Of a DNA stretch of 39,246 nucleotides, positions 3,161 to 38,853 are shown piece after piece. The notes under the pieces were generated by a model, which saw only the letters and a list, made by a program, of their open reading frames with translations, did no database searches and was not told the origin of the DNA. The stretch's first letter is position 1; each line of letters starts with the position of its first letter. The stretch is taken from positions 1 through 39,246 of the IMG/VR virus record IMGVR_UViG_3300042564_001890, one strand, 5' to 3'. Made by a program: the position numbers and the translations under genes. Source of the DNA: a virus.

Positions 3161-3168
3161 TACCTTTG
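3161..3168 (+). promoter_or_regulatory. -7 promoter element before scaffold gene
   Basis: TACCTTTG fits TAnnTTTG and ends 16 bases before the ATG at 3185. Bases 3160-3180 (the element plus the A-rich leader) are identical over 21 bases to 6456-6476 in front of another head-region gene, so this looks like a duplicated promoter-leader unit. Confidence 0.65.
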
Positions 3169-3184
3169 CTAAAACAAAAGTAAC

Positions 3185-5737: not shown

Positions 5738-5765
5738 TTGATTACTAATCAATAGGTTAAATATA

Positions 5766-5797
5766 AGGGCTCTAGTTAATTCTAGGGCCCTTTTTTT
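5766..5797 (+). terminator. Intrinsic terminator after capsid gene
   Basis: A ten-pair stem (AGGGCTCTAG at 5766-5775 with CTAGGGCCCT at 5782-5791, one G-U pair), a six-base loop TTAATT and a run of seven T. It ends the head-gene transcript, and the next promoter starts six bases later. Confidence 0.9.
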
Positions 5798-5802
5798 GTT
5801 CA

Positions 5803-5810
5803 TAAATTTG
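5803..5810 (+). promoter_or_regulatory. -7 promoter element before metallopeptidase-like gene
   Basis: TAAATTTG, directly after the capsid terminator and 14 bases before the ATG at 5825. With the terminator just upstream this gene needs its own promoter, which makes the match more convincing. Confidence 0.65.
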
Positions 5811-5824
5811 CTGAAATAGTAGCT

Positions 5825-6456: not shown

Positions 6457-6464
6457 TACCTTTG
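6457..6464 (+). promoter_or_regulatory. -7 promoter element before 6484 gene
   Basis: TACCTTTG, 19 bases before the ATG at 6484. Element and leader repeat those of the scaffold gene exactly (6456-6476 equals 3160-3180), suggesting the two genes are expressed together. Confidence 0.65.
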
Positions 6465-6483
6465 CTAAAACAAAAGAAATAAA

Positions 6484-7362: not shown

Positions 7363-7393
7363 AATAGGTTTTTGTTTCATTTGCTTTTGGTTT

Positions 7394-7429
7394 ACCCCTC
7401 TACTATTCTTAGTTGGAGGGGTTTCTTTT
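7394..7429 (+). terminator. Intrinsic terminator before neck operon
   Basis: Stem ACCCCTC (7394-7400) with GAGGGGT (7416-7422), 15-base loop partly closed by further pairs, followed by the T-rich TTCTTTTT. It ends the 6484 gene's transcript nine bases before the next -7 element. Confidence 0.8.
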
Positions 7430-7437
7430 TATATGCT

Positions 7438-7445
7438 TAACTTTG
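7438..7445 (+). promoter_or_regulatory. -7 promoter element before neck/tail operon
   Basis: TAACTTTG ends 14 bases before the GTG start at 7460, right after a terminator. The surrounding bases resemble those of the portal promoter at 768 (15 of 16 match across TTAACTTTGyACAAAT). Confidence 0.65.
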
Positions 7446-7459
7446 TACAAATTTGACAC

Positions 7460-8122
7460 GTGAATATAAATGACTGCTTTAAAATTGTAGCCTATCTAGT
7501 AGATAAGTATCAAGGAACAGGCGTATCTCCAGAGGACTTTAATAGGATATTTCCTATGGCAGAAAGGTCTTATTTTGATATGCTTGCAGGTGGTGTTGAG
7601 GATTTTCAACCAGGAAGACCAATATCTAGAATAGGCTTAGGAATGGGTAATAATGTAAATGAGGCATTATCTGCATTTATACAGACATCTACCCTAACTA
7701 TAACTTCAGGAAGTGCCAATGTTCCTGCTAACCTATTTAAGGCTATATCAATGAGAACAACAGGAAATGTTGATATACCTAGAATAGACCACTCAAAACT
7801 TGCTAGTAAATTAAATAGCTCAATAGATGCTCCAACTTTAACAAAGCCATGCTTTAATGAGGTTGGTTCTACTTATAAGTTTTATCCTACAACATTAACA
7901 ACAGCTAATCTAACATTTCTTAGATTGCCAACTCCTCCTGTTTGGGGATACACAACAGTGTCAGGAAGACCTGTTTATGATGCCGGAACTAGTACGCAGT
8001 CAGAGTGGAATGACGCAGATTTAAATAAGATAATAATGAGAGCTGTTGGTCTAATTGGCGTAAGCATTAATGACCAATTAATCATACAGGCTGCAAATCA
8101 AGTTAAAGCTAAAGGAGAATAA
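7460..8122 (+). CDS. Putative neck/head-completion protein
   Basis: 220 residues starting at a GTG (first residues MNINDCFKIVAYLVDKYQGTG); no in-frame ATG precedes the conserved-looking N-terminus and the promoter is too close for an earlier start. The N-terminus, a helix followed by SPEDFNRIFPMAERSYFDML, resembles proteins common after the capsid genes of Bacteroidota podoviruses. It is first in a run of closely spaced genes (3 bases to the next). It would act at the connector between portal and tail. Identification is by position and a remembered family look, not by a catalytic or binding motif. Confidence 0.55.
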   Translation: MNINDCFKIVAYLVDKYQGTGVSPEDFNRIFPMAERSYFDMLAGGVEDFQPGRPISRIGLGMGNNVNEALSAFIQTSTLTITSGSANVPANLFKAISMRTTGNVDIPRIDHSKLASKLNSSIDAPTLTKPCFNEVGSTYKFYPTTLTTANLTFLRLPTPPVWGYTTVSGRPVYDAGTSTQSEWNDADLNKIIMRAVGLIGVSINDQLIIQAANQVKAKGE

Positions 8123-8125
8123 CGC

Positions 8126-8731
8126 ATGAATAGAAGTCAATTTATAGAATTAGTAAGAAGGAATTACTACAATGGTATTCCTAGTTCCGATGCAGAATTA
8201 ACACCGGAAGAAGTTGATTTGTATGTAGATGCTGCCGTAGGTAGAGCTGTTACAATAAACTATAGAGAAGCTATTGAGTTAGATGGTATTGAAACTATTG
8301 GAGATGTATTCTATTCTACATTCAAAGGTTTTACAATAGCTAAAGATAACGATACTGGGTATTATTACTTTGATTTACCTCAAGCACCATTAGCGTCAAA
8401 AAGAGGTTACAATATAGCAACATTAACTTTTCCTGTTAGCTCAGGATTAGCTAAAGCTCCAATCCAAGTATCTGTTAAAGAACTTGATTATATGGACCAA
8501 TTACCTACGCCTCCAAGTAAGATATTCTTCTGGCCTGAAGGTAAAAGATTATACATGAAGAGCTACATTAACTTAATAGGCAAAGCTCCTATTGTAAGAA
8601 TGGTTAGCCCTAAAATAGATGAGATACCTGAAGATTATATTGCTTCAGCTATGGATTGGATTATGGGTCAATTAAGAATTAAAAAACAAACACCTCAAGA
8701 TTTAGCTAATGATGGTGTTGATAAAGCGTAA
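8126..8731 (+). CDS. Putative neck protein
   Basis: 201 residues, not firmly recognised. The N-terminus (NRSQFIELVRRNYYNGIPSSDAELTPEEVDLYVDAAVGRAV) is helical, followed by a beta-rich part with Tyr and Pro (DNDTGYYYFDLPQAPLAS), like small connector or gate proteins. It starts three bases after the previous stop and six bases before the next start, so it is translated as part of the neck operon. No membrane segments or signal peptide. Confidence 0.5.
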   Translation: MNRSQFIELVRRNYYNGIPSSDAELTPEEVDLYVDAAVGRAVTINYREAIELDGIETIGDVFYSTFKGFTIAKDNDTGYYYFDLPQAPLASKRGYNIATLTFPVSSGLAKAPIQVSVKELDYMDQLPTPPSKIFFWPEGKRLYMKSYINLIGKAPIVRMVSPKIDEIPEDYIASAMDWIMGQLRIKKQTPQDLANDGVDKA

Positions 8732-8737
8732 TAAATT

Positions 8738-9508
8738 ATGAGTAAAGCAACAGCACAATGGGTTCCGTTAGCAGAGGTTATATATAACTATATAGACCAG
8801 GCTCATCTAACTAGTGCAGAGTTTAGAAGACTTTGGGCTCTAGGAATTAGAGGTGTTAATGAGTTAGGAATGGATGTGTTCTATACTCCTAAAACAGAGA
8901 AGTTAGTAGTTAAGCCAAACAAAACTGTTGAGTTACCTGCTGATTATTTAGCATATACTAAAATAGGTGTACTAAATGCAGATGGAGAAGTTGCTACTTT
9001 AAAAAGAAATCCAAATAAGACGGCCTACAAGATAGCTGATGCAGATAGAACTAGTAACAATACAGATGAAGGAATAGGTGATGCTTATGATAGCAGATTC
9101 TGGAGTTATGTAAACTATTACAGCGGAGCAGGTTATGTTAACTTATTCGGTAATGGCTCTATGCTAAATGATGCAGGGGAGTTTAATATAGATGAAGAGC
9201 AGGGTTATATCTACCTAGATAACGACTTTGCTTATGATTATATTATATTAGAGTATCTATCAGATGCTTCTAATGACCAAGATTTTAAAATACCAATTCA
9301 GATAGTAGAAGCTACTATTGCTTTTTTAGCATGGAAAGATATAGAGTTTCTTGCTTCTTCTAGAAAAGTTAATATGGGAGAAAAGCAGCTTAGAAAGAGC
9401 AACTACTATAATCAAAAGAGATTAGCTAAACAAAGAGTTAACCCAATAAGACTTTGGGAAGCTAATAGCACTATAAGAGCAGGACAGAAATTGGTTGTTA
9501 AAGGATAA
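8738..9508 (+). CDS. Tail tubular/stabilisation-like protein, crAss-like type
   Basis: 256 residues. The N-terminal part, a helical region ending in FRRLWALGIRGVNELGMDVF followed by VVKPNKTVELPADYLAYTKIGVLNADGEVATL, resembles a tail-tubular/structural protein that follows the capsid genes in crAss-like phages. It would form part of the short tail tube below the portal. A low-complexity Asn/Asp/Gly/Tyr part (residues 100-160) follows. It lies between a neck gene and a very large tail protein. The similarity is recalled from known families and should be tested by profile search. Confidence 0.55.
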   Translation: MSKATAQWVPLAEVIYNYIDQAHLTSAEFRRLWALGIRGVNELGMDVFYTPKTEKLVVKPNKTVELPADYLAYTKIGVLNADGEVATLKRNPNKTAYKIADADRTSNNTDEGIGDAYDSRFWSYVNYYSGAGYVNLFGNGSMLNDAGEFNIDEEQGYIYLDNDFAYDYIILEYLSDASNDQDFKIPIQIVEATIAFLAWKDIEFLASSRKVNMGEKQLRKSNYYNQKRLAKQRVNPIRLWEANSTIRAGQKLVVKG

Positions 9509-9520
9509 AAAAAATAATAA

Positions 9521-12500
9521 ATGCCTCAAGAGAAAAAGCAGTTTCAGGGTATACTAAATCTTCAAGATTCAGAAGATATAATACAGCCAGGTCATCATAT
9601 TGATGCCATGAATATAACCTTCAGAAATGGAATAGCTGAAAATATACTTGGTAATAGAGAGTTAGGTAGCTTATCATTATTACTTCCAAGTACTGGGACT
9701 AACGTATGTATATGCGCTTACAATGACGAGTTAAGAGGTAAGCTGATTATATTCAATGCAAACTCATTAGGGTACGACGGAATATATAAAGTATCCACTT
9801 TGTTTGGAGCTTCTGCAACTAGAATATATCAAGCAGGAACAGCATCGTATCCAAATATATTAAACTTTTTTAATTCAAATAACAAAATTCATTCAGTAAA
9901 TATACTGTACGGTGAGACGGAGGATGAAGATATACTATTATTCATAGACACTTTAGGAAGACCTACTAAAATGAAGATGTCAAGATTCATAGCAAATGAA
10001 TACTCTGCATCTGAAATAAACAGAACATACATAGATGTTCATGTTAATCCCCCTATGTCTCCTATAAAATGTACATACGAGCATGATAATGCAGTTACCG
10101 CAAATAACGTAAGGGACTCATTATTCCAATTTAGATACAGATTTGTTTACGATGATAACGAGAGGAGTACATGGTCTCAAGCAAGTATCACGCCACTTCC
10201 TTTTGATTACCTAAAACAGCAGGGGACAAAGAATAATTCAAGAATTGCTTTATTCATGTCAACAGGTGGAAGTAATGTAAAGAAGATAGAAATCGCAGCA
10301 AAGGAAACAAAGGGAGAAGTTACTTCTGATTATTTTCTAGTTGACTCTATAGACAAGTCAATATCTTCATTATCAGATAATTCGGTTTATAAATACAACT
10401 TCTATAATAATGGAGTTTATGAATTTTTAGACCAAAGAGAGATAGATTTAGTATTCGATAAAGTTCCAGACGAGGCTAATACCCAGGAATTATTGAATGG
10501 CAACGTAATTATATACGGAGGTATTAAGGAAGGATATGATAATCCAACTGTAACAGGTTCATTATCATCTGAATTGAATAACTATCTAACTCAACCAAAT
10601 GGCCTTTTGTTTGTAGCTTCTTCAAGAGGAGAAGATAGTTCTAATACAGCAGGTAATATTGTATTAACGATAGCTGGAACAGGAACTTTAGATGTAAATA
10701 ATAATACATCTATTTTAGATTCAGTAAATGCGACAGGCCATACGTACATAATAAACATGGTAGACTCTTTAGGAGCTGCAGTTAATATTACATACGACGC
10801 AACATCTCAAACAGTAGATACGATACTAGCAGGGATAGGAACAGCAGCTACAGGTTTAGGTTTTACCGTATCTTCAATATCTAATCACTCAATTACTATA
10901 TCTAAATCAGGAGTTAAGTTATTGGGCTCTTCGTTTAGGGCAAATAATCAAAACATAGTCGCTGACTCATTTAATGTTTATAGCGAATTAGCTAAGAACT
11001 CGTTCTACTCTTTTGGATTGGTTTACTTCGATGTAAAAGGTAAAACAAATGGAGTTGTATATCCTATTCAAGCATTTGATAAGAGTACTAGCGAATATGC
11101 TTCATTCCCTCCGCTTCTATATGATTACATAGTAAATTATGTAAAACTATCAATAACTAGCAGACCGCCATCATGGGCTGTTAAGTACTCCGTTGTAAGA
11201 AGCGATAATAAAACAATAGATAAGCAAATAACTTGGGTTACTAATGATGTAGCGACAGGTTCTTCGGATTCTGCTATTTCATCAGATTCGTTAGTAACCT
11301 ATGTTGGAATACAGAACATGGGTGTATATAATGAGATACTTAATTCAGAAAGTGGGATAAACTACGACTTTGTAGAAGGGGATAGAGTTAAGTTCGTATC
11401 AAGATACCAAACAGGAACATTTAACGACCTTAAAGCTGCATATGCTTCTGGTACGTACGATTATGAGATTATAGGAACAGAAATCAATCCTAAAATAGGA
11501 GGGAAAGCTAGAGAAGGAAAGTATTTGAAATTAAGATACTCTGACTTGTCTAGTGATATATCTACTCAATTCAAGGTTGATGGTAGCATGTTTTTTGGTA
11601 ACTACTTGATTGTAATCTATAGACAAAAGAAAAGGTCTTCAAGTGATAAAACATTCTTTTATGAATTTGGGCCTAGTTTAGGCATAGGTGATGCCGGACT
11701 TGCTACAAGATACCACATTGGTAATGGTCAGGCATCTGATGATAATAATGGTAACCAATCAACAAATTTAACATATCCTGCATTAGTAAAATTCCATGCA
11801 GGTGATTGCTATACAAAATACAGGAATAATATACCTATTGTACTTGGTAAGTACGATGGTTCATTAACTTCATATAGTCACTCTGTAAGTGCAGGAGACG
11901 TATATTCTACAATGAAAATGAGTATGCCTAGTCAAGATAATGCATCATTTAGAGTAAGCTCTCAAACAGAGCAACTATCTAATGGATATGCGCTAGGAGA
12001 TTATCCGTTATACGCAAATGACGCAGGTTTCTTCTTTTATAATAAATCTACAACTGAAGAGTTAAAGATAAGGATTAGAGGAACGTTTAGAGCTTACGGA
12101 ACTAAAACTTCATATATGAAATTAGTTCTTAAAAAAGTTCCATCATTAGCTCCTCTTGCTGTTACTACAACAGACTTAACGGATGTTGTAGATATATCAA
12201 ACGCCCCTGTTGCTTCAGGAAGTCCAGGAGCGCCTGTTGAGGTTCAATTTGATAAGGTTATATCAGTTAGACAAACAGATAAGATTTCATTAATGGCAGA
12301 AGGTACAGTTTTTGCACAATCTGTTGTTTTATTCTCTGAATTCAGTATTGAGGTTTATAGAAATGTAGAAAAAATACACGTTACCGAAGAATTAGTATCA
12401 GACTCTAGTAGACTATACTTTAGCGGAAATGGTAGACCTTTCCTTTTTGATAGAACTGCAAAAAGAGGATACTATGGTAGCTTGGTTAGATATGGCCAAA

Positions 12501-13522
12501 ACTTTATAGCAGGAAGCTCAGTAAACGACACAAACAGATTCTACGATAGTAATCAAGATGAATATGACTTACAATACGGAGATATTGAAAGATTTAAGTC
12601 TAGAGATAAGTCACTTAGGGTTTTCCAACAAAGAAACACTGGGGCTGTTCCTGTATTCCAATCATTGATTCAGGATACATCAGGTTCTAGCCTTATAGCT
12701 CAAAGTGACAAGATATTGAACAAGATTCAGTACTACTCTGGTAATTATGGGATAGGTAATCAGCCATGCTCATTAGCATCATCTTCTTTCGTAGACTACT
12801 TTGTAGACACTGTTAACGGTGCTATAGTAAGAGTTAGTTTAGATGGGATTACTGCATTAAGTAAAACATACAAGCTAGATGATTGGGCTGTAAGTAAGTT
12901 ATCTAAATACTATAAGTTTGGATACAAAGACGTTGTATTTGGAGCTTACGATAAATTGAATAACAATTATATAGTCCACCTTCAGTCTGTGGCTAATATA
13001 GAGCCAGACCTGGCAATAACAGACACGTACACATTATCTTTCAATGAGCAAACAAACTCATTTGTTAGTTTTTACAGCTATTATCCTGAAGCTATGGTAT
13101 TCTCTAACGGAGGATTCTATAGCATGAAATCAGGTAAGGCGTATATTCATGATGTAATCACAGCTGGCTCAAGGGCATCATTCTACGGAGTAGCCGGAGC
13201 TTGTTATATTCAGTGTGTATTCAATTCTTCTAGAGACGCTAAAAAGAGATTTAACGCTCTTACTTATCTAGGAGACGGAAGTTGGGAGGTTGTTTCAAAT
13301 ACATCTATAGGACAAGATAGCTCTCTAATAGAGGCCGATTTCAGGAATGTAGAAGACAAGAAGCACGCAACTATGCTGAGAGACTCAAATAGTCCAGGAG
13401 GATTGATTAATGGTGACGTATTAAAGGGAGATTGGATTAAGGTAAAACTATCAGCGAAATCACCACAAAATAAAGTAAATTTGCATTTAGTAGAAGTAAA
13501 CTTGTTAATACAAAATAGATAA
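9521..13522 (+). CDS. Large tail/collar stabilisation protein
   Basis: 1333 residues. The start, PQEKKQFQGILNLQDSEDII followed by AMNITFRNGIAENILGNREL, has the layout of the big stabilisation (tail tubular B-like) proteins of Bacteroidota podoviruses, which open with a short basic stretch, then AMNI and an ENxxGN motif. The rest is beta-rich with many Ser/Thr/Asn/Tyr and no enzyme motif visible, as expected of a multi-domain beta-propeller-like tail hub. The segment near residues 380-470 (TAGNIVLTIAGTGTLDVNNN) looks like an inserted Ig-like or lectin-like domain. It follows the tubular protein by 12 bases and precedes an internal virion gene by 2. An internal -7 element at 13476 may serve the next gene. 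Confidence 0.6.
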   Translation: MPQEKKQFQGILNLQDSEDIIQPGHHIDAMNITFRNGIAENILGNRELGSLSLLLPSTGTNVCICAYNDELRGKLIIFNANSLGYDGIYKVSTLFGASATRIYQAGTASYPNILNFFNSNNKIHSVNILYGETEDEDILLFIDTLGRPTKMKMSRFIANEYSASEINRTYIDVHVNPPMSPIKCTYEHDNAVTANNVRDSLFQFRYRFVYDDNERSTWSQASITPLPFDYLKQQGTKNNSRIALFMSTGGSNVKKIEIAAKETKGEVTSDYFLVDSIDKSISSLSDNSVYKYNFYNNGVYEFLDQREIDLVFDKVPDEANTQELLNGNVIIYGGIKEGYDNPTVTGSLSSELNNYLTQPNGLLFVASSRGEDSSNTAGNIVLTIAGTGTLDVNNNTSILDSVNATGHTYIINMVDSLGAAVNITYDATSQTVDTILAGIGTAATGLGFTVSSISNHSITISKSGVKLLGSSFRANNQNIVADSFNVYSELAKNSFYSFGLVYFDVKGKTNGVVYPIQAFDKSTSEYASFPPLLYDYIVNYVKLSITSRPPSWAVKYSVVRSDNKTIDKQITWVTNDVATGSSDSAISSDSLVTYVGIQNMGVYNEILNSESGINYDFVEGDRVKFVSRYQTGTFNDLKAAYASGTYDYEIIGTEINPKIGGKAREGKYLKLRYSDLSSDISTQFKVDGSMFFGNYLIVIYRQKKRSSSDKTFFYEFGPSLGIGDAGLATRYHIGNGQASDDNNGNQSTNLTYPALVKFHAGDCYTKYRNNIPIVLGKYDGSLTSYSHSVSAGDVYSTMKMSMPSQDNASFRVSSQTEQLSNGYALGDYPLYANDAGFFFYNKSTTEELKIRIRGTFRAYGTKTSYMKLVLKKVPSLAPLAVTTTDLTDVVDISNAPVASGSPGAPVEVQFDKVISVRQTDKISLMAEGTVFAQSVVLFSEFSIEVYRNVEKIHVTEELVSDSSRLYFSGNGRPFLFDRTAKRGYYGSLVRYGQNFIAGSSVNDTNRFYDSNQDEYDLQYGDIERFKSRDKSLRVFQQRNTGAVPVFQSLIQDTSGSSLIAQSDKILNKIQYYSGNYGIGNQPCSLASSSFVDYFVDTVNGAIVRVSLDGITALSKTYKLDDWAVSKLSKYYKFGYKDVVFGAYDKLNNNYIVHLQSVANIEPDLAITDTYTLSFNEQTNSFVSFYSYYPEAMVFSNGGFYSMKSGKAYIHDVITAGSRASFYGVAGACYIQCVFNSSRDAKKRFNALTYLGDGSWEVVSNTSIGQDSSLIEADFRNVEDKKHATMLRDSNSPGGLINGDVLKGDWIKVKLSAKSPQNKVNLHLVEVNLLIQNR
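13476..13483 (+). promoter_or_regulatory. Possible internal -7 promoter element
   Basis: TAAATTTG inside the last codons of the large tail protein, 41 bases before the next ATG (13525). The same TAAATTTGC bases precede the 5825 and 21277 genes. Because it lies in coding sequence the match may be accidental. Confidence 0.3.
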
Positions 13523-13524
13523 TT

Positions 13525-14133
13525 ATGGCAGCAGGAGCAGGAATAGGAACAGCAATAGGCTTAGGTACAGCATTAATAGGCGGTATTAAAGCTAAAAAAG
13601 TAAGGAAAGACATTGAGGGAACTATGGCTAATAGGCCAGGTTTATCAACTCCGGCTGCATTATCTAAAATGGTAGCAACTGCGGAGTCTAGAGAAGGTAT
13701 GGGTATATCCGATGCCGCTAAGAATTTAGCTCAAACAAGTGCTGCTCAAGGAATGTCTACAGGCATATCTGCTTTAACAAAAGGCGGAAGAGGTGCTTTG
13801 GCTTCAGGTGCAACAAGCTTAATTAGGAGCCAACAAGACGCTGCTAATCAAATGGCTCTGCAAGACGAGGCTGCTAGACAGAGAAATTTAGGTGCAGCTC
13901 AACAAGCTAGAAGTATGATGGCTCAGAATCAAATGGCAATACAAAAAGATAGACAAGAAGCATATCAAGAAAAGCTTTCTTTTTTAAATCAGAGATACAA
14001 TCAAATGCAAGGACTAGCTAGTCAAGGACTAGGTATAGCAGGAACACAGGCTGCCAAAATGGAAAAGAATCCATTAGCAGGAGTTGGAAAAGCAATAACT
14101 GGATTATTCAAGAAAAAACCAGCAACACCATAA
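13525..14133 (+). CDS. Putative internal virion / DNA-ejection protein
   Basis: 202 residues, Ala/Gly/Gln-rich. A Gly-rich hydrophobic N-terminus (residues 3-22, AGAGIGTAIGLGTALIGG) is followed by a long helical, Ala/Gln-rich part (QDAANQMALQDEAARQRN) and a Lys/Pro-rich end. That layout resembles T7 gp14- or P22-type ejection proteins, which travel in the head and help form a channel across the host envelope. It starts two bases after the previous stop and lies before two more large internal-type proteins, as in podovirus ejectosome gene blocks. Confidence 0.55.
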   Translation: MAAGAGIGTAIGLGTALIGGIKAKKVRKDIEGTMANRPGLSTPAALSKMVATAESREGMGISDAAKNLAQTSAAQGMSTGISALTKGGRGALASGATSLIRSQQDAANQMALQDEAARQRNLGAAQQARSMMAQNQMAIQKDRQEAYQEKLSFLNQRYNQMQGLASQGLGIAGTQAAKMEKNPLAGVGKAITGLFKKKPATP

Positions 14134-14148
14134 AACCAAAAAGAGACA

Positions 14149-15432
14149 ATGGCAGCATTTAAATTTAATTTACAACAGGTTGATATTTTAGGTGCCTATG
14201 ATAGGTATACTAAAGAACTAGAAGAACAGAAAAAAGAAGAGTTGTATGATAACAAACTAGTAGACCAACAGGTCGACGACTTTAATAGATATTATAATCC
14301 AAAGTCTATTAGAGAGAATGATTTGCCACTATTACAATCTTCTTTTAAAAGCTACGAAACGGCTGCTAAAGCTTTATTTAAAGCTAGAAGAATGGGAAAT
14401 GTAGATGAGATAAACAAGAATAGAGATACGATGCAGAAGGCTGTTGCTGATATGGGTGATGTGTATAATAAATCTGTTATCGCTAAAAAGGTAGCTGCTG
14501 ATATGTCTGTGTTAAAAGACCAAGAAAGAAAAGGCCTAATTGTTATAGACGATAATAATTATAAAAATTACTTCAATTTATTTACAGCAGGAAATTTGAG
14601 TGATATAGAAAGTACTGTTGGTAAGCCTGATACATGGGCTAATGTGATGACAGGAGTAGAGTATAATAATAATAAGTTCAATGAAAGTCTCGGTAAAACA
14701 ATAACAGCGTTTAATTCAAATAAGAATAACTATATAACAAGCACAGCTCCAGTAGAGTACCAAACACAGAAATTAACAAACGGAGACGATTTTAAGATTC
14801 CTGTTTTCGAGAAGACTCCGGACTACAACAAGGCTCTTCAACTTGCTATGGTTCAACCTGAATCAATGAAGAAAAAGATATTTCAACAATTTAATGCAGA
14901 TTTAGCTCAAGGCGGAACAGTTAGTGACATAGCTAGATTAAAGCAAAATAAAATAGCTGCAATATTTAAAAAGACACCTGACCAATTAACAGCAGATGAC
15001 CTACTTGCATATTCTATAGCAGGAGACCCTAGAAAAGAAGCGGACTTCAAACAAGGAAAGGAAACGTGGAAAATAAATATGGAAGAAAGGCAGTTTGAAT
15101 ACAAGAAAAAGCTAGATGAAGAGAAACTAAAGATAGCAAAAATGAGAGCAGCTAATAAAGGTAAAGGTGGTTCAGGCAAAGTAACGGCAATGGAAATCAC
15201 GTTACTTAAGAATTACTATGACTCTTCTAAAGGGGATTTTACTAATACTGGAGGTCAAAACCTTACCAATGATGTTAAATTCCAAGAATTCTTAAACGCT
15301 GTAGACCCTAAGATAATTGGATTTATACATAAGGCGGCTCCTGGGACTAAAACGTCACTAAAAGAAATGAACAGGGTTCTTTATGGTTACATGAAAAATC
15401 CGCAAAGCCTATACGGAGCAATGCAAAATTAG
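14149..15432 (+). CDS. Putative internal virion protein
   Basis: 427 residues, mostly charged helix with no membrane segment or enzyme motif. Two coiled-coil-like stretches are visible: residues 20-45 (RYTKELEEQKKEELYDNKLV) and residues 300-345 (MEERQFEYKKKLDEEKLKIA), the second followed by a GKGGSGK linker. It lies between the Ala/Gln-rich ejection-like protein and a 1917-residue internal protein, so it is probably the middle component of an ejectosome-like set. It is preceded by a short A-rich leader (AAAACCAAAAAGAGACA), with no -7 element. The call is from context and composition. Confidence 0.5.
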   Translation: MAAFKFNLQQVDILGAYDRYTKELEEQKKEELYDNKLVDQQVDDFNRYYNPKSIRENDLPLLQSSFKSYETAAKALFKARRMGNVDEINKNRDTMQKAVADMGDVYNKSVIAKKVAADMSVLKDQERKGLIVIDDNNYKNYFNLFTAGNLSDIESTVGKPDTWANVMTGVEYNNNKFNESLGKTITAFNSNKNNYITSTAPVEYQTQKLTNGDDFKIPVFEKTPDYNKALQLAMVQPESMKKKIFQQFNADLAQGGTVSDIARLKQNKIAAIFKKTPDQLTADDLLAYSIAGDPRKEADFKQGKETWKINMEERQFEYKKKLDEEKLKIAKMRAANKGKGGSGKVTAMEITLLKNYYDSSKGDFTNTGGQNLTNDVKFQEFLNAVDPKIIGFIHKAAPGTKTSLKEMNRVLYGYMKNPQSLYGAMQN

Positions 15433-15456
15433 AGGAACTCCTTAGTATAAAATTGG

Positions 15457-15490
15457 TTAGCTTTGCATATTACTGTAAAGCTAATTTTTT
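15457..15490 (+). terminator. Hairpin terminator overlapping a promoter, just before the 15491 start
   Basis: A perfect eight-pair inverted repeat TTAGCTTT (15457-15464) / AAAGCTAA (15477-15484), 12-base loop, followed by six T that run straight into the ATG at 15491. It would stop transcripts coming from the neck operon. The left arm also contains the -7 element of the next promoter, so transcripts starting there lack that arm and should not form the hairpin. Confidence 0.6.
15458..15465 (+). promoter_or_regulatory. -7 promoter element within terminator arm
   Basis: TAGCTTTG fits TAnnTTTG and lies 25 bases before the ATG at 15491. It is contained in the left arm of the hairpin described at 15457-15490. 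Confidence 0.6.
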
Positions 15491-18400
15491 ATGGCAGATA
15501 CCCAGAATGATAATCAAGGGCAGCAACCTACAGGTGGCTCACCAATAGGACCACCACAGCCAATAAGAGTTCCAAATGTTGGGCTAATAAGACGTATTTT
15601 CGATAGAGGGATTCAAGATGGAACTATTCAATCAGGACCTGTTAGTCCTGCTAGAAAGGTTCAACCATTATTAATGGGAAATACATCAGAGGCTCAACCT
15701 AAACCACTTTCTTTGCAAGGTGCCGGAATGGAGAAGCCAAGAAAAGCAATAGTTCAACCAAAACCAAAATTAGTTGGTAAGGTAGAAAAAGGCGCTCCTG
15801 TACAGGCAATAGCTGTACCTGAAGTTAGCGATATACAATCATTTGCTCCTCAAAGAAAATTAACAGAAGCTGAGATAGAGCAGAATAGAGAAAAGTATGT
15901 TCCTGAAGCTATAGAAAACACAATAATCATAGCAAGAAATAGCGCGTCAGATAAGACGTATTTTGACAATTTCGTTGCCCCTAATTTAAGAAAAACACTA
16001 TCTGAAGATATTAAATCAGGAGAGCTTGATGCAGGGTTAAATAAAGATAGATACCCTGTAGTAACAAGGAGGGTAGATGGTATAATTGAGAATATATTAT
16101 CAGGAGTAAAAGATTCATATAACTTTAGAAAGGGCTTAGATGAATACCCTAGATTAGATGAAGAAGGTAAAATACAGTTTCTTTCAGGCAAAAGTACATT
16201 TAGGATACCTACATTATCTCAAGTTGGTTCCCCAACAAAATACTTGTACTCTGGTCAGACAACGCAAGAGTATCAAGGGGCTGTCCCTACAGAAAGGGGC
16301 ACAGTAGGTGAAGTAGCTTACGGTTTAGGCGGAGTTCTTCCGGACATTGGAGCGGGCCTTGTAGCAGCTCCAATGAATCTATTAGTTCCAGGAGCTAGTT
16401 TACTTACAGTAGGTGCTGTGCAAGGTAGAGTTGGGGCGATAAATGCAGCTCAACAGGCATTTCAGGTAGCTAAAGCAAACGGATTAGATGATAAGGAAGC
16501 ATTGCAGATTGCAAATAAAGCGGAAAAAACAGGTGCTATAACAGGAACATTAGAAGGTGTTGCCAGTCAGTTCTTTGGTACTAAAATCCTTAAAGCATTT
16601 GCTGCCCCTGCTGCTAATAAAGCATTGACAGGGTTCGTTAGTCAAGCTAAACAATTCCTTAAAGGAGCAGTTACGACTACAGGAAAATCAGCAGCTGCTT
16701 TAGCTTCAGATATGGGAGTCGCAGGAACAATGGAAATAGTAAGACAAGAAGGTCTTGCAGACCAAAATTTAGAAAATCCAAATAGAAATAAAGAGATTTT
16801 AGATAATGTGAGAATGGAAGGCTCTGTTGCTTTAGCATTTGCTATCGTTGGTAAATTAACTAAAGTTCCTAAATACCTTCAATCTTATGCAACTAGTACG
16901 CTAGCTGCATTAGACCCAAATGATTTAGTTGACTATGCAACTGAAATGGAGGTAACAGGACAAGCTCCGGCTGGATTTGCAAATACTGTTAGAGATGAGG
17001 TAAAGAGATATAATGATGCAAAGGATGCAGCAGGTGGTGTTGCAGACCCAGAGATAGAGCCAACGGTTGTTGGTTTGATAATCAAGAAGAAGAATCTTCA
17101 AGAAAAATTAAAAGCTGCTGATGATACAATTAAGCCTCAAATACAAGCAGAAATAGATGAATTAAATACAAGAATTACTACTACACTTGATACGAAAGTC
17201 CCTCAAGAAGTAGATGATAAAACACAATCTAAAATAGAACAAGATGCCACTAAAGAAATCGAGCAAGTCTCTACCGTACAAGAAGGCGGTACAGCAGAAC
17301 CTACGGGAGCTATTCCTGGACAACAAGAAGTCGGGCAAGGAGAAGGGAGCCAACGGCAAGCCACGGAGCAGGGCGCAAATATTGGCGATAGCAATATCGG
17401 CGGCCAAGCGGAAGTAGCCCCTACACAAGAGAAGACAAAAAGAGCAGGAGATTCTATCAGGGCGTTTAAAATAGAACAAGCTGCGGGTACTTTAGATACC
17501 AACATCTTTGGTATACCTATTGCAATATACAATGGAGTTCTAGAGACCGCAGCAACAGCCACTGATTTAGGTGCTGATGTAGTAGCTGCTGTTAGAAAGT
17601 ATTTAGCAGAACAGAATCCTGATGATATAGCAGGTATAGATGAGAATGCATTAATAGATGACGTCACTTCTAAACTTCCTAAAAAAGAAAAACCGATTAT
17701 TACAGAAGATGATGTAATTAACTATGAAGCTACTTCTGAAGAAAGAAATAATCAAGAAAAGAAAGCGTCTAGAACTGTTAATAAAACAGTATGGAGAAAA
17801 TTATTAAAGGCTGTTGATGATAATCAGGTTAACGTAATAAAAGAACTTAAAAAGACAGGTAAGTTTTCTGACTTATTGGTTTCTGCACTAGAAGCCATTA
17901 GGCATACTTCAACAGATTCTAATGAAAGGATAAACGCATTTAATAAGAATGTATATGATGGATTAAGCGATAAGCCTACAATTCAATTAGGAAACTCTCA
18001 GTTTAGCGAGAAAGGATTACTTGAAGCTGTTATTAAAGCAAAAAGATTAATAGAAATTCAAAGAATGCTAGGCGATAAGTTCAATAGGTTTCAACAATTT
18101 GATTCTGAATACAATACCGCATTGGCAGAGTATGAAGCAATAGATGAAGCTACAGCAAAAAATAAAAAGAAGCTAGATAAGGTAGCTGAAAAGATAAACG
18201 AATTAAATAAGAGAATCATATCAGCCAATTTAGATGAAAATAATCAAGAAGATTTTGATAAGCTAGTTGAACTTGTTAGAGACCAGCATGATAAAGCTGA
18301 TGCTATAATGGCTGAGATGGAATCTATATCTGAAAAAAACAAGATAGCTGTCGCAAAGATAAGAGAGACTAGAAACAGGAGACAGGCAGCCCTAGAGTAT

Positions 18401-21244
18401 ATAGCAGACAGAGGAGTATTGTCACAAAATCAAGACGGAACATACGCTTTAGGTAATTATAAAATGGGAGCCATAAGAGAAGGTATTCCATATACCGCAA
18501 ATGAAGCTCAAGCATTTTTAAATGCAGCTTCTAAATCAGATAAGTTCGGTGATATTGATGCTAGGTCAGAAGAAGCGTTCTCTGCATTTAAATCAATATT
18601 AGATGAGCAATATGATGCAGGATTAATATCTCAAGAACAATATGATGATTTATCTAAATATAAGTACGTTCCGATTAGATATATATCAAGTGTATTAATG
18701 GATGGCAATAGCGCATTTATGAAAAGTAGAGGCGGAGCTAATATAAAATCACTAACAGGAGGTTCTGATGGCTCTCAAATAACAGACTATTCTACTTTAT
18801 TCAATATATACGCTACAACTGCTCTCAAGAATATAGCTACAAATAAAACACTTCAGTTGCTAGAACAAGCTATTAAGTCAGACCTTCCTACAATGAAGTC
18901 TACTAATATATATAATCAAGATATAGTAGTAAAATTAGCGGAAACTGAAAAGAAAAAAGACGGAACAGATAAAACTGATAAATTTGGTAATAAGGTGTAC
19001 GCAAAGCCAAAAGAAGGATTTACAAATATCAAAGTTTACAATAAAGACGGCGTAACAATGTTATCTGCTCCTACATGGTTTGCAGATGAGTTTTACGGAA
19101 ACTCAGAATATAATAGGACATTAAGCATGTTATCTTCGGTGCTTGGAGTTAACTTACTTAGGAAATCTGTTACTATTGCAAACCCTGCATTTGGTATGGC
19201 ACAGTTAGTAACACTAGACCCTATCCAGGCTATACTAACAGCTAAAGGTTTTAATCCAATACTTCCTGTTGCTTATGCAGAAGTAGTAGCTCAATGGCCT
19301 TCTGTTTACAAGAGTATAAATAGGAAGGATGCTATTTATAAAGAAGCTGTTAAGAATGGAGTATTTGGTGACATGGCTGCGAGGTCTGGAATAGACAAAT
19401 TCTATGATAATGCAATATTTACAGGAATAAAATATATAGATGATAAAGTGTCTGACAAGAATTTATTTGAAAAAGTTTTATTTGGCGCTGACATATCTAG
19501 GATTCCTGGCATAAAACAATCTTTACAATATGGAGAATCTATTGTTGGTACTTCAGAAAAAATGACAAGGCTTATAGTTTATAAGAAGTCTAAGAAATAT
19601 TTCATGGATAAGGGCTACTCTGCAGAAGAAGCAGGTCAATTAGCGGCATCTGAAGCTAGGAATACTGCAAATTTCTCTAGAGCAGGAGATATTATAAAAC
19701 AAGCTAACCATGTAATTCCATACCTATCTGCGGCATACGCTACTAAAAGAGCTGTTGTTAAGTCGTTCAAGAGAGACCCTCTAAAAGCATCTTTAGTAGT
19801 ATCTCAAATGGCGCTTGGTGGTTTAGCTGCAACACTATGGTCAGCCGGATTGATTTTTAGTGACGAAAAAGAGAAAGAGTATTGGGGCGAAATGTACAAG
19901 GCTCTTCCTGATTATTACAAGAAGAATTACGTTGTAATAAGAAACCCTTCTCATAACGTAGGGGATGATATTACAAATGCATTCATTAGAATACCTCTTC
20001 CATTTGGGGCAAAAGAAATGTACAGTGGTGTTATGAGTGCTAGTATGGGAGAGTATATGGATGAAGAAACAACTACAAAAGAAGCTATCGTATCTTCAAT
20101 ATTATCTACACTTGACATGGTTGGACTAGAAGATGTATCACTTCCTCCGGCATTAAGTGCTATGGTTAAGTATAAATTAAACATAGACCCTTATACAGGG
20201 AATAAGATAGTTTATGACGAGTCAACAGGAGACTACAAATACCTTGAAGAGAAACAAGGAACGCTGCCTATGATTCAAGCAGCAGCACAGAAAACTAAAG
20301 CATTCTCTGCTCCTAGATTACAGTCTGCTATAGAATCATTTACTGGGAAATTCGATAGAAATCCTATAACTCAAATAATAACAAACTCGCTAAACTCTAT
20401 ATATGAAGCAGCTGCAAGAAAGGATAACTCTATTATTAAGTCAATAAAAGATGACCCAAATAAATTAATAGAAGCTCCCTTATCATCTGTTTCAAGTAGA
20501 TTCTACGCAACACCTACGAAGTATTATCAAAATAAATTCGTAAGTATTCTAACCGATTATATTTACTCTAAACTTACTAGCGATTTTAATCCAACATTGT
20601 ACGATAAGGCTACCGAAAGAATGAAAGAACTAGGACTAGCAGGTATGGCATCTAATGACCAGTTGGAATTCTTTGTTAAGGATGCTGAAAAATTCCTAAA
20701 AGACGTAGAGAGAGACCTTGGTAAAAAAGAGGCTTTGAAATATGAGAGAAAATTGAAAGATGCTAGAATAGGTAGTATTAAAGACCTTCTTAAGTTAAAT
20801 ATAATAGAAGATGACTCTTTAAAAAAATTATCAAAAGAAGGAACCCCCGTTATAAAAGGAAGAGCTGCTTATGATATACTAAAAGGACTTGATAAAGAAG
20901 AAAACAGAAAATTCCTAGTAGCAACAGCATTAAAAGCAACAGAAGAATGGAATACCCCTCAAATGAAAGAAGGATATATCGAAAGGGGATTAGAGGATAT
21001 GTTCGGCACAGATTATAGAGAGAAGTTTAAAAATACTTTAAAGGGGAGCAGGTCGATTGCCATAGATGATATGTACAGAGCTTCAAAAGAATTTAATACT
21101 GATTCCAAAGAAGTAAAGGATAAGAAGCTAGGATTTATAAATTTAATGAAATTCTATATCGATAGTAGAAATCCGGATGCTTCAGGAATAAAAGGAGATA
21201 ACATAACAGACTCTCTATTTGGCTTCTACTACCCTCGGAAGTAA
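15491..21244 (+). CDS. Giant internal virion protein (polyvalent, LPD38-like region)
   Basis: 1917 residues. Residues 1-110 are Pro/Gln-rich and disordered. Around 275-315 lies a Gly/Ala-rich hydrophobic stretch (GLGGVLPDIGAGLVAAPMNL), around 580-660 a second low-complexity Gln/Gly/Glu region, and 850-960 a long coiled coil. Near residue 1393 a region reading NFSRAGDIIKQANHVIPYLS, followed by a hydrophobic segment (VVSQMALGGLAATLWSAGLI), resembles the LPD38-type domain of phage polyvalent proteins, which are injected with DNA. Such giant proteins are the large ejectosome component (compare T7 gp16 or crAss-like cargo proteins). No lytic transglycosylase or polymerase motif is visible. It is the sole gene of its transcription unit, with a terminator/promoter in front and a new promoter behind. 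Confidence 0.65.
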   Translation: MADTQNDNQGQQPTGGSPIGPPQPIRVPNVGLIRRIFDRGIQDGTIQSGPVSPARKVQPLLMGNTSEAQPKPLSLQGAGMEKPRKAIVQPKPKLVGKVEKGAPVQAIAVPEVSDIQSFAPQRKLTEAEIEQNREKYVPEAIENTIIIARNSASDKTYFDNFVAPNLRKTLSEDIKSGELDAGLNKDRYPVVTRRVDGIIENILSGVKDSYNFRKGLDEYPRLDEEGKIQFLSGKSTFRIPTLSQVGSPTKYLYSGQTTQEYQGAVPTERGTVGEVAYGLGGVLPDIGAGLVAAPMNLLVPGASLLTVGAVQGRVGAINAAQQAFQVAKANGLDDKEALQIANKAEKTGAITGTLEGVASQFFGTKILKAFAAPAANKALTGFVSQAKQFLKGAVTTTGKSAAALASDMGVAGTMEIVRQEGLADQNLENPNRNKEILDNVRMEGSVALAFAIVGKLTKVPKYLQSYATSTLAALDPNDLVDYATEMEVTGQAPAGFANTVRDEVKRYNDAKDAAGGVADPEIEPTVVGLIIKKKNLQEKLKAADDTIKPQIQAEIDELNTRITTTLDTKVPQEVDDKTQSKIEQDATKEIEQVSTVQEGGTAEPTGAIPGQQEVGQGEGSQRQATEQGANIGDSNIGGQAEVAPTQEKTKRAGDSIRAFKIEQAAGTLDTNIFGIPIAIYNGVLETAATATDLGADVVAAVRKYLAEQNPDDIAGIDENALIDDVTSKLPKKEKPIITEDDVINYEATSEERNNQEKKASRTVNKTVWRKLLKAVDDNQVNVIKELKKTGKFSDLLVSALEAIRHTSTDSNERINAFNKNVYDGLSDKPTIQLGNSQFSEKGLLEAVIKAKRLIEIQRMLGDKFNRFQQFDSEYNTALAEYEAIDEATAKNKKKLDKVAEKINELNKRIISANLDENNQEDFDKLVELVRDQHDKADAIMAEMESISEKNKIAVAKIRETRNRRQAALEYIADRGVLSQNQDGTYALGNYKMGAIREGIPYTANEAQAFLNAASKSDKFGDIDARSEEAFSAFKSILDEQYDAGLISQEQYDDLSKYKYVPIRYISSVLMDGNSAFMKSRGGANIKSLTGGSDGSQITDYSTLFNIYATTALKNIATNKTLQLLEQAIKSDLPTMKSTNIYNQDIVVKLAETEKKKDGTDKTDKFGNKVYAKPKEGFTNIKVYNKDGVTMLSAPTWFADEFYGNSEYNRTLSMLSSVLGVNLLRKSVTIANPAFGMAQLVTLDPIQAILTAKGFNPILPVAYAEVVAQWPSVYKSINRKDAIYKEAVKNGVFGDMAARSGIDKFYDNAIFTGIKYIDDKVSDKNLFEKVLFGADISRIPGIKQSLQYGESIVGTSEKMTRLIVYKKSKKYFMDKGYSAEEAGQLAASEARNTANFSRAGDIIKQANHVIPYLSAAYATKRAVVKSFKRDPLKASLVVSQMALGGLAATLWSAGLIFSDEKEKEYWGEMYKALPDYYKKNYVVIRNPSHNVGDDITNAFIRIPLPFGAKEMYSGVMSASMGEYMDEETTTKEAIVSSILSTLDMVGLEDVSLPPALSAMVKYKLNIDPYTGNKIVYDESTGDYKYLEEKQGTLPMIQAAAQKTKAFSAPRLQSAIESFTGKFDRNPITQIITNSLNSIYEAAARKDNSIIKSIKDDPNKLIEAPLSSVSSRFYATPTKYYQNKFVSILTDYIYSKLTSDFNPTLYDKATERMKELGLAGMASNDQLEFFVKDAEKFLKDVERDLGKKEALKYERKLKDARIGSIKDLLKLNIIEDDSLKKLSKEGTPVIKGRAAYDILKGLDKEENRKFLVATALKATEEWNTPQMKEGYIERGLEDMFGTDYREKFKNTLKGSRSIAIDDMYRASKEFNTDSKEVKDKKLGFINLMKFYIDSRNPDASGIKGDNITDSLFGFYYPRK

Positions 21245-21252
21245 AAATAGCT

Positions 21253-21260
21253 TAAATTTG
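21253..21260 (+). promoter_or_regulatory. -7 promoter element before tail-appendage operon
   Basis: TAAATTTG, 16 bases before the ATG at 21277, in the only gap between the giant internal protein and the tail-appendage genes. Confidence 0.65.
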
Positions 21261-21276
21261 CATAAAATAATAACTT

Positions 21277-21807
21277 ATGCCTTTTGAAGCAATAATAACA
21301 CCGTCTCAAGGCTCAAACTGTGCTAGATTTACGGTTGCCGATACTTCTACATACACAGTAGAAGCAAAGGGGACATTCACATCTAGAAAGCTAACCTTAC
21401 AGAAATCAGATGGTTCTTACGTAACCGTAGGTACTACTGTTTATAATGAATATGTATGGCCATATGCTGCCGGAGATTCTATTGAAATTACCGGTCTTAC
21501 ATGGGATTTAGCTATTACAGCTGTACTTCAATTAACATCAAGCTCCCCTCAATCAGGAAGTGTATATAATGACACTCAAGTGTTTAGCTTAACATGTTTT
21601 ACTAATTCAGCATACTTTAGTAATACTAGCCTTATGGCTACCAATCAATCATTAGAGAAGAACCCTAAGTTCGTAAGAGACGTGATTAGGCTTTTCATAG
21701 AGCAATCTGCTGCCGTAAAAGCTGCCGCAGAAGGTAATATGTCTAGTGCACAAGCTTCTTTAGACAGGGCTGAATACATAACGAACGACCTTAAAACAGG
21801 GTACTAA
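21277..21807 (+). CDS. Unknown tail-region protein
   Basis: 176 residues, not recognised. The first 110 residues are beta-rich (SNCARFTVADTSTYTVEAKG, then LTLQKSDGSYVTVGTTVY), like a small immunoglobulin-like or baseplate domain. The last 55 are helical with Ala (AAVKAAAEGNMSSAQASLDR). First gene of the appendage operon; its stop overlaps the next ATG by one base (TAATG), so the two are translationally coupled. A collar or fibre-attachment role is possible but not shown by any motif. Confidence 0.5.
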   Translation: MPFEAIITPSQGSNCARFTVADTSTYTVEAKGTFTSRKLTLQKSDGSYVTVGTTVYNEYVWPYAAGDSIEITGLTWDLAITAVLQLTSSSPQSGSVYNDTQVFSLTCFTNSAYFSNTSLMATNQSLEKNPKFVRDVIRLFIEQSAAVKAAAEGNMSSAQASLDRAEYITNDLKTGY

Positions 21808-22499
21808 TGGGATATACTTTAACTCAAATTAATACAGTTTTATTCAAGGCTGATAGGTCTATCCACATCCTTGGTAGCGTAGCTTACAATAAAAAGTTTG
21901 CCGAGCTAGATGAAACGTATTGGTATGATAGGGATATTATCTTCATATATAAGACGGCTGTAGAATGGGGTAAAGTAAACGACAGGGTTGGAGACCCTAG
22001 GATGGACTTTATCGTAGAGAGATTAGAGGCTATGATGGAGATATATGACTATGGAACTTTGACTCCAATTTACAGTCAGGTAGCTTCATTATTTGGAATC
22101 ACGACGGTAAACTACATCACAGAAGAGGAGGACCCAACAGTCCCTGAATATGTTAAAAACATAACAGAAAGCAATATTACTCATTGGGAGTCTGCTTATG
22201 ATGAGAAAATTAACTCTGGTTCTGTTTCAACTACTCCAGGAGTTAACCAAAATACGCTGATACTTAATCAGCAAAATGGAGATACGATTAATATAACATG
22301 GGCGGATACGAATTATGTACATGACCAACAAGTGGCATCAGCTACTTGGGTTATCAACCATAATTTAGGTAAATTTGCATCAATTCATATTGTAGATACG
22401 GCAGGGGATGAAATAATAGGAGAGGTTAGGTATAACAGTATAAATCAAATGACGGTAACATTCACATCACTAGTAAGTGGTAAAGCATATATAAACTAA
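21807..22499 (+). CDS. Tail-appendage protein with HNLG C-terminal domain
   Basis: 230 residues. The N-terminal 100 residues are helical (FAELDETYWYDRDIIFIYKT) and probably bind the tail. The C-terminal 48 residues form a small beta domain, TWVINHNLGKFASIHIVDTA ... NQMTVTFTSLVSGKAYIN, that is also at the end of the next protein (YVVTHNLGTIDVIVMLKDNL ... NNVTVSFASVPAFWAY). This HNLG module is common at the ends of phage fibre and head-fibre proteins. It lies between a small unknown gene and a fibre gene in one operon, with start overlapping the previous stop. Confidence 0.6.
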   Translation: MGYTLTQINTVLFKADRSIHILGSVAYNKKFAELDETYWYDRDIIFIYKTAVEWGKVNDRVGDPRMDFIVERLEAMMEIYDYGTLTPIYSQVASLFGITTVNYITEEEDPTVPEYVKNITESNITHWESAYDEKINSGSVSTTPGVNQNTLILNQQNGDTINITWADTNYVHDQQVASATWVINHNLGKFASIHIVDTAGDEIIGEVRYNSINQMTVTFTSLVSGKAYIN

Positions 22500-22504
22500 T
22501 TACA

Positions 22505-23614
22505 ATGGCTAAAAAAATGTTGGTCAATTTAGACCTCTCAAAAAATCAGATACTTAACGTAGCGTTACAGAATCTAAGTTCACCTCCTAGCTCACCTGTT
22601 CAAGGTCAGATTTACTATAACACAGGAGACAAGGCTATCTACTATTGGGATGGTACTGTTTGGGTTAATGTATCAGGAGATATTAGTGCCGTTGTAGCAG
22701 GTTCAGGTCTAACAGGTGGCGGAACTAGTGGTTCTGTTACTTTAGATGTGAATGTAGATAACGCAACTATTGAAGTTGATAACGATATAGTTCGTGTTAA
22801 AGACCTAGGTATCACTACCGGAAAGTTGAATGACGGTGCCGTAACTACTATTAAGATTGGTGACAACCAAGTTACACTTGGTAAACTTGCGCAGATTGCT
22901 AATAACACTGTTATTGGTAACACATCTGGCGGTACAGCAAATCCTTCTGAAGTTACAATCGTAACTGATTTAGCTAGTGCTAGTTCTACTACACTTGCTA
23001 CATCTAGCTCAATTAAAACATATATTGATGCTTTAGTTGGAGGATTAGGTAATCTAGAGGGTGGATGGGATGTAGCTGTATGGTCTTCTTTTCCTCAAGT
23101 AACATCTCCGGCTGTTATTAAGAAGGGGGATTATTGGTACGCTACAACTGCTGGCTTAATCAATACAAATACATTTACTCAAGTTAAAGTAAACATTGGA
23201 GATGTATTCGTAGCTAAAATTGACAATGCACAATCTGTAACAGAAGCAGATTGGATAGTATTAGAGACAAATAGAGACCAAGCAACAGAAACTGTTTTGG
23301 GTGTTGCTGCGATAGCTACTGACGCTGAATTAACTACAGGAACTAATGATACTGATATCGTTACACCTTTAAAGTTAAAAACTTACTTAGATAATAGAAC
23401 AGGCGGATACGCTACAAATATCGGAGATGGTTCATCGAGCTCTTACGTAGTTACACATAACTTAGGAACAATTGATGTTATAGTAATGTTGAAAGATAAT
23501 CTTACGAATGAAGAAGTGTTTGCAGATGTAGTCATAACTGATTTAAATAATGTAACAGTTAGTTTTGCTTCTGTTCCAGCATTTTGGGCGTATAGAGTTA
23601 TCATAAAGAAATAA
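22505..23614 (+). CDS. Tail fibre-like protein with HNLG C-terminal domain
   Basis: 369 residues. N-terminus LVNLDLSKNQILNVALQNLS followed by QGQIYYNTGDKAIYYWDGTV is a fibre-head layout frequent in Bacteroidota phages. A Gly/Thr-rich stretch (SGLTGGGTSGSVTLDVNV) and a carbohydrate-module-like middle part (KGDYWYATTAGLI, then VGDVFVAKIDNAQSVTEADW-like text, a fibre domain that often precedes a chaperone or knob) follow. The end is the HNLG beta domain shared with the preceding gene. No signal or membrane segment. It should be an attached short fibre; it starts five bases after the previous stop and five bases before the long-fibre gene. Confidence 0.65.
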   Translation: MAKKMLVNLDLSKNQILNVALQNLSSPPSSPVQGQIYYNTGDKAIYYWDGTVWVNVSGDISAVVAGSGLTGGGTSGSVTLDVNVDNATIEVDNDIVRVKDLGITTGKLNDGAVTTIKIGDNQVTLGKLAQIANNTVIGNTSGGTANPSEVTIVTDLASASSTTLATSSSIKTYIDALVGGLGNLEGGWDVAVWSSFPQVTSPAVIKKGDYWYATTAGLINTNTFTQVKVNIGDVFVAKIDNAQSVTEADWIVLETNRDQATETVLGVAAIATDAELTTGTNDTDIVTPLKLKTYLDNRTGGYATNIGDGSSSSYVVTHNLGTIDVIVMLKDNLTNEEVFADVVITDLNNVTVSFASVPAFWAYRVIIKK

Positions 23615-23619
23615 AATAA

Positions 23620-30544: not shown

Positions 30545-30565
30545 TAAAATAAACTATAATATTAG

Positions 30566-30593
30566 AAGGGTGGCCAATAGGCTGCCCTTTTTT
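30566..30593 (+). terminator. Intrinsic terminator before lysis cassette
   Basis: Ten-pair stem AAGGGTGGCC (30566-30575) / GGCTGCCCTT (30580-30589) with two G-U pairs, four-base loop AATA and six T. It separates the lysis cassette from the upstream late genes. Confidence 0.9.
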
Positions 30594-30614
30594 ATTTACA
30601 TAATTATAATTAAG

Positions 30615-30622
30615 TAATTTTG
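30615..30622 (+). promoter_or_regulatory. -7 promoter element of lysis cassette
   Basis: TAATTTTG fits TAnnTTTG and lies 13 bases before the ATG at 30636, about 20 bases after the terminator. It is the probable main promoter for the holin-like and endolysin genes. Confidence 0.6.
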
Positions 30623-30635
30623 TATAAAATTTATT

Positions 30636-38786: not shown

Positions 38787-38853
38787 AATCCGGTATTGGA
38801 ATCGAACCAATATCTTATCCGTACGAATAGTTTTACCATTAAACTAACCGGAT
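38787..38853 (-). tRNA. tRNA-like element with undersized anticodon arm (possible degenerate tRNA)
   Basis: On the lower strand: a seven-pair acceptor stem (ATCCGGT with ACCGGAT, extendable to 8), positions TA, a D arm GTTT-AATGGTA-AAAC with the usual GG, and a T arm ATTGG-TTCGATT-CCAAT. Between D and T arms only 18 bases remain, of which TATTC-GTAC-GGATA can form a five-pair stem with a four-base loop. A normal tRNA has a seven-base loop and an anticodon, so none can be assigned. There is no encoded CCA. It lies between the primase-helicase gene and the inverted repeat. It could be a decayed tRNA or a structural mimic of one. Confidence 0.5.

Follow-up and report, generated by a model that had tools for sequence, protein, structure and literature searches.

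Can a promoter, a terminator-like hairpin and a start codon share the same few bases, and could such a junction set the expression of one large phage gene apart from that of its upstream neighbors? We address this question at the junction between a 427-aa gene and a 1917-aa gene in a 39,246-base virus record, analyzed over its full length and referred to here as the window. The window is part of a Bacteroidota-type phage, because its portal, capsid and primase/helicase proteins match PHROGs, its capsid is distantly like those of Flavobacterium and Cellulophaga phages (76 records, ~24% identity among the matches listed), and its gaps carry a Bacteroidota promoter box. The 1917-aa product is, from its position and size, probably a giant virion protein. 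Elsewhere in the window, positions 32321-32920 match glycoside hydrolase family 19 (Pfam), perhaps an endolysin, and Rfam places a tRNA on the minus strand at 38787-38853 (48.7 bits; gathering threshold 29), while ARAGORN finds none in the window.

The junction and its hairpin

The elements of the junction overlap almost completely (Table 1). A preliminary description of this DNA had pointed to a perfect 8-pair hairpin with a T tract before the ATG, and to a left arm that overlaps the -7 box of a promoter. Both points are borne out when 15457-15490 is read directly: the perfect inverted repeat inside 15457-15484 spans 8 bp, TAGCTTTG shares seven of the eight bases of the left arm TTAGCTTT, and the ATG (15491-15493) comes right after the T6 run. 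RNA folding lengthens the stem to 13 pairs, counting G-U, between 15455-15467 and 15474-15486, with a 6-nt loop and an energy of about -13.5 kcal/mol. These pairs are mostly A-U. The junction has no Rfam match at gathering thresholds.

Table 1. Features of the giant-gene junction and of the sites compared with it.
Feature	Coordinates	Strand	Remark
Upstream 427-aa gene	14149-15432	+	No family match above cut-off
Intergenic gap, 58 nt, between the 427-aa and 1917-aa genes	15433-15490	+	51/58 aligned columns identical in five genomes
TATAAAA	15446-15452	+	Predicted partner of 15487-15493 (TTTTATG, start codon inside) in read-through RNA
Invariant block, 41 nt	15454-15494	+	Identical in all five genomes
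Hairpin 5' strand	15455-15467	+	Core left arm TTAGCTTT, 15457-15464
TAGCTTTG, predicted sigma-A -7 box	15458-15465	+	Class enriched in upstream gaps; published consensus
Hairpin loop	15468-15473	+	Contains predicted transcription start 15470
Hairpin 3' strand	15474-15486	+	Core right arm AAAGCTAA, 15477-15484; carries A-12 and A-13, two positions of the translation start region
T6, U tract of predicted terminator	15485-15490	+	Directly abuts ATG
1917-aa gene	15491-21244	+	LPD38 domain
Comparison: promoter-only junction (TAAATTTG)	21245-21276	+	Also invariant
Comparison: predicted terminator, then TAAATTTG promoter	5738-5824	+	
Comparison: predicted terminator, then TAACTTTG promoter	7363-7459	+	
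Comparison: predicted terminator, then TAATTTTG promoter	30545-30635	+	

The hairpin by itself is not rare in AT-rich DNA. No other perfect 8-bp stem with a loop of 3-20 and at least five T in the next six bases occurs on either strand of the window. Dinucleotide-shuffled windows, scanned on the plus strand, yield a mean of 0.17 such sites, with one or more in 29 of the 200. Shuffling the 58-nt gap in place gives a perfect 8-bp stem with any tail in 184/5000 cases and a fold at least as stable in 41/5000 (z -2.9). Furthermore, terminator-like sites overall are not above chance (12 in 8000-27900 vs 9.6, sd 3.3, after shuffling). What is unusual is the placement of the hairpin, in a promoter gap and with T6 against the ATG.

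This placement bears on a reading in which the junction is a promoter only. In that case, the box, the start region and the leader are selected, the inverted repeat is a by-product of a T-rich box and an A-rich leader, and read-through RNA is unaffected. The shuffle rate for perfect 8-bp stems fits this account, which we nevertheless consider unlikely. The giant gene is the only one of 37 listed starts (one of which, 794, is placed 3 bases off) with T6 immediately 5' of its start codon, whereas the other starts most often have A at -1 to -5. In F. johnsoniae, A at -3, -6, -12 and -13 favors translation (PMC6847099). By these rules the T6 run is a poor start context. Since A at -3 and -6 aids translation there, a T run before the ATG is a translational cost that a terminator would explain.

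A promoter class and a marginal predicted terminator

The TAnnTTTG boxes are a non-chance promoter class in the window. We found this box in 10/14 upstream gaps, where shuffles lead us to expect 0.5; the maximum in 2000 shuffles is 4, and the opposite strand has 1. Gaps of at least 10 bases were counted, each over no more than its final 60 bases. The box agrees with the published sigma-A -7 consensus of Bacteroidota (PMC6847099, PMC9723704, PMC7366714), which for F. johnsoniae is reported as TTTG/TANNTTTG (PMC6847099). A TTG at the -33 spacing of 17-23 is absent upstream of TAGCTTTG; such a TTG accompanies 1/11 TAnnTTTG boxes in the window, the same as the background of 0.11. Two other promoters, at 3161-3180 and 6457-6476, are identical in box and leader (TACCTTTGCTAAAACAAAAG), as though one had been duplicated from the other.

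Transcription from the giant-gene box is predicted to begin inside the hairpin loop. In F. psychrophilum the box lies at -12 to -5, with a median leader of 24 bp (PMC9723704), and this offset puts +1 at 15470. The predicted leader of the local mRNA is 21 nt, and 25 nt separate the box from the start codon; in scored gaps, the nine remaining boxes lie at distances of 5-19 nt. The same offset gives A at the predicted +1 in 9/11 TAnnTTTG boxes of the window; position 15470, unlike these, is T. A start in the loop would leave local transcripts without the left arm, so that this part of the preliminary description is supported as far as the start position, itself a prediction, allows.

The hairpin would be a marginal terminator in a telling place. 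We scored stems with T tracts on both strands by a terminator score, d. The value for the giant-gene site depends on the stem boundary: stems of 28, 30 and 32 bases give 5.2, -2.1 and -13.2, and a 26-base stem, with an A between it and the T tract, gives -28.0. It ranks fourth in the window on both strands, which the promoter-only reading leaves unaccounted for; the next site scores -12.6. Sites scoring at least -2.1 occur at 0.58 per window in forty shuffled windows, both strands included. The preliminary description had upstream transcripts stopping at the ATG. A complete stop is unlikely, because the predicted terminator is marginal, and the statement that no other promoter supplies the giant protein goes too far if termination is the sole mechanism.

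A TAnnTTTG promoter lies 12-28 nt beyond each of the three higher-scoring predicted terminators (40.3, 39.9 and 13.9, at 5767, 30568 and 7395). The top four sites by this score are thus all promoter-linked, and terminator plus promoter is a recurrent layout, fused at the giant gene. By eye, the tandem form is also present in other gaps of Elemovirus, phi38:1 and the deeper relative G005. Identical arms with T5 occur in 11 stretches of bacterial genomes. In 5/9 loci examined (L057, L058, L060, L062, which is Flavobacterium, and L064), they begin 16-57 nt past a same-strand ORF, called mechanically, which is a terminator-like placement. Two Brachyspira pilosicoli contigs carry a near-identical hairpin and T tract between genes (L058 4127-4166 and L060 811-847).

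A hairpin on the box is not general among the Bacteroidota phage promoters sampled. The comparison took in 116 candidate promoters, drawn from the window, from G005 and from portions of nine named phages. A general rule that -7 boxes pair with their leaders was rejected: stems of at least 5, 6, 7 and 8 bp number 36, 12, 4 and 3, vs shuffled means of 32.7, 12.6, 4.3 and 1.25. The excess at 8 bp is doubtful, as 11/100 shuffles reach 3. Stems of 4 bp are slightly more frequent (72 vs 64.7; 2/100 shuffles reach 72), an excess too weak for use. The promoter-only reading is consistent with these counts, but it is at odds with the T runs: among the 25 strongest-stem candidates listed, one other has at least four T against its right arm (G005a 2576, six pairs, TTTT). 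In Cellulophaga phage phi38:1, a short hairpin over the -7 box before gp092 (L044 13103-13163; ACTATCTTTGTAAGGTAGTTT; by eye) is a weak look-alike.

Conservation among related phages

The junction is far more conserved than its surroundings. Protein scans of IMG/VR recovered four relatives that include it (L004-L007), which share 66-83% identity along the whole giant protein and 56-80% in the upstream protein. The 41-nt block is 100% identical in all four, while the 300-nt flanks are 40.4-65.0% identical upstream and 59.7-67.9% downstream (MAFFT, gap columns counted). Across the five genomes, identical columns number 41/41 in the block, 64/332 upstream and 146/363 downstream. In BLAST columns, with unaligned bases taken as differences, the flanks have 0-0.75 and 0.69-0.80. 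Selection on the block is thus well supported by these alignments. Selection on pairing is a separate claim, with no covariation behind it, as the stem is identical in all five copies.

Block invariance is no proof of a hairpin, because the promoter-only junction at 21245-21276, which lacks such a hairpin, is equally invariant in the four relatives and has similar upstream flanks. Several other promoter junctions sit in longer invariant runs, with better conserved surroundings. These comparisons are what a promoter-only junction would produce. The invariance extends to the loop, and the inverted repeat is centered close to the predicted start, as would suit a protein that binds the palindrome over the -7 box in DNA and represses or activates the promoter. 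The T6 run adjoins one arm only, and we consider such a DNA-level role very unlikely.

The alignment to relative G004 is interrupted and resumes at 15439 and 21237, at the promoters flanking the giant gene. This suggests that the giant gene may have been exchanged as a module. Recombination at the module borders of mosaic phages might then keep the block identical as a conserved linker, and the two restarts do bracket the gene. Both borders are also promoters, however, which is enough for invariance, and the hairpin is left unexplained; a linker of this kind is highly improbable.

More distant copies with compensating changes were not found, as a pattern search of viral contigs and the protein scans gave the same four relatives. 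A match to the junction pattern in L008 was discarded as an unrelated stretch that reads as coding by eye. A fifth contig (L026, 6.8 kb, capsid 99% identical) ends before the junction, as do three with capsids of 51-54% identity (L030, L031 and L033). In named phages, the upstream 427-aa gene has no protein match, the giant gene has 6 weak partial matches (21-24% identity), and the junction DNA has chance-level matches only (3 records, E 2 or more). A capsid scan of bacterial genomes gave no relative.

G005, with a capsid 53% identical, is alone among the deeper relatives in including the junction. Here, TAACTTTG ends 4 nt before the giant-gene ATG (L032 19936-19950), and the promoter is present without such a hairpin, as the promoter-only reading would have it. 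By the same offset, the predicted start is the A of the ATG, and the giant-gene message would be leaderless. The stretches of Elemovirus, phi38:1 and phi18:3 that we examined have no TAnnTTTG directly before the giant gene. The promoter looks older than the hairpin, which appears to have arisen in the window's genus, although one deeper genome is thin evidence for this order.

Predicted folding of the start region and known switches

In RNA read through from upstream, the translation start of the giant gene is predicted to be closed. Unpaired probabilities are at most 0.31 at -13, -12, -6, -3 and the AUG in 5/5 genomes. The AUG would be closed because 15446-15452 is predicted to pair with 15487-15493 (one relative differs at 15446), and the TTT of the -7 box is predicted to pair with A-12 to A-14. 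In 4/5 genomes, positions -13, -12 and -3 are predicted to be at least half open in local RNA, with unpaired probabilities of 0.45-0.96 at -13 and -12 and of 0.53-0.94 at -3; L005 is the exception at -12 and at -3 (0.09 each). Within the AUG itself, U and G are predicted to stay mostly paired in local RNA in 5/5 genomes (0.03-0.14 unpaired). None of five other window starts compared is closed throughout in read-through RNA. An attenuator-like hairpin of the right arm and the T tract in local RNA was set aside, at only -1.7 kcal/mol. Occlusion of the translation start by the same hairpin in read-through RNA is a predicted effect that goes beyond the preliminary description.

On balance, and by a narrow measure, we favor a promoter-in-hairpin module in which weak termination and occlusion of the start site together lower read-through expression. 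RNA polymerase with the host primary sigma factor would use TAGCTTTG and start near 15470 in the loop, giving a local mRNA with a leader of ~21 nt and no 5' strand, in which the A-rich start region is more accessible. Upstream RNA would contain both strands and fold, with part of it ending at the T tract that precedes the ATG. In RNA that escapes, the extended stem would bury the T tract and the AUG together with the signals A-12 and A-13, and the giant protein would be made mostly from local transcripts. Such an arrangement may serve to set the dosage or timing of this protein independently of the structural genes upstream.

The hairpin could instead act solely by burying the start region in read-through RNA, as a translational switch of the T4 type without termination. 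The predicted closure from -13 to the AUG in every genome and the low terminator score are in keeping with this, and T4 e and I-TevI offer a precedent (PMC3014915, PMC2988022). The T6 run and the recurrent predicted terminators before promoters fit termination better, however, and the folding is a prediction; we regard a purely translational switch as quite unlikely.

A more elaborate possibility is that the 34 bp act as promoter, terminator and translational gate at once. A precedent is terminator-coupled reinitiation, in which polymerase, once its RNA is released, can diffuse on DNA and restart at a nearby promoter (PMC6978380). At the giant-gene junction, upstream polymerases would terminate at the T tract, stay DNA-bound and initiate anew from the -7 box ~20-30 bases back, swapping a long RNA for a short translatable one. 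The pairing of TTT with A-12 to A-14 would be eased by the promoter and translation signals of Bacteroidota. We hold this reading, taken as a whole, to be decidedly improbable. The published system was studied in vitro with E. coli polymerase and has separate elements, whereas they are fused at the junction (PMC6978380).

If the favored module is real, a compact Bacteroidota phage genome isolates one large structural gene without extra DNA, and the logic of T4 gene e extends to a phylum without Shine-Dalgarno sequences. The junction would also be a candidate for a small natural insulator suited to Flavobacterium. A limited keyword search of open papers turned up no Bacteroidota phage for which such a fused promoter-terminator is described.

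Among known systems, the tandem layout of an intrinsic terminator followed by a promoter, with three predicted pairs in the window, likewise separates two transcription units. The giant-gene site differs in fusing both in 34 bases and in its much lower hairpin score. In IS10 and IS50, an inverted repeat folds in read-through RNA and masks the transposase start, while an internal promoter starts inside it; this fold-back protects the mobile element from outside transcription. The junction resembles it in start hiding and the internal promoter but differs in role and in its T tract, which is not known to be part of the IS10/IS50 fold-back. In T4 e and I-TevI, the promoter lies within the DNA for the 5' strand of an inhibitory hairpin, which long upstream transcripts fold and local ones, without that strand, do not (PMC3014915, PMC2988022). 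The late-promoter hairpins of T4 gene e (lysozyme), soc and I-TevI are alike in that the promoter encodes the 5' strand, as the box does here. They sequester the Shine-Dalgarno sequence and/or the AUG, separating early from late expression. The giant-gene junction has no Shine-Dalgarno sequence in the 20 bases 5' of 15491 (TACTGTAAAGCTAATTTTTT), and we therefore do not file it as a member of the T4 type but propose that it merely works alike. Furthermore, its T6 run hints at termination too, and its promoter is a Bacteroidota -7 box. We predict a compact version of the switch known from T4 in a group of viruses of Bacteroidota-type bacteria.
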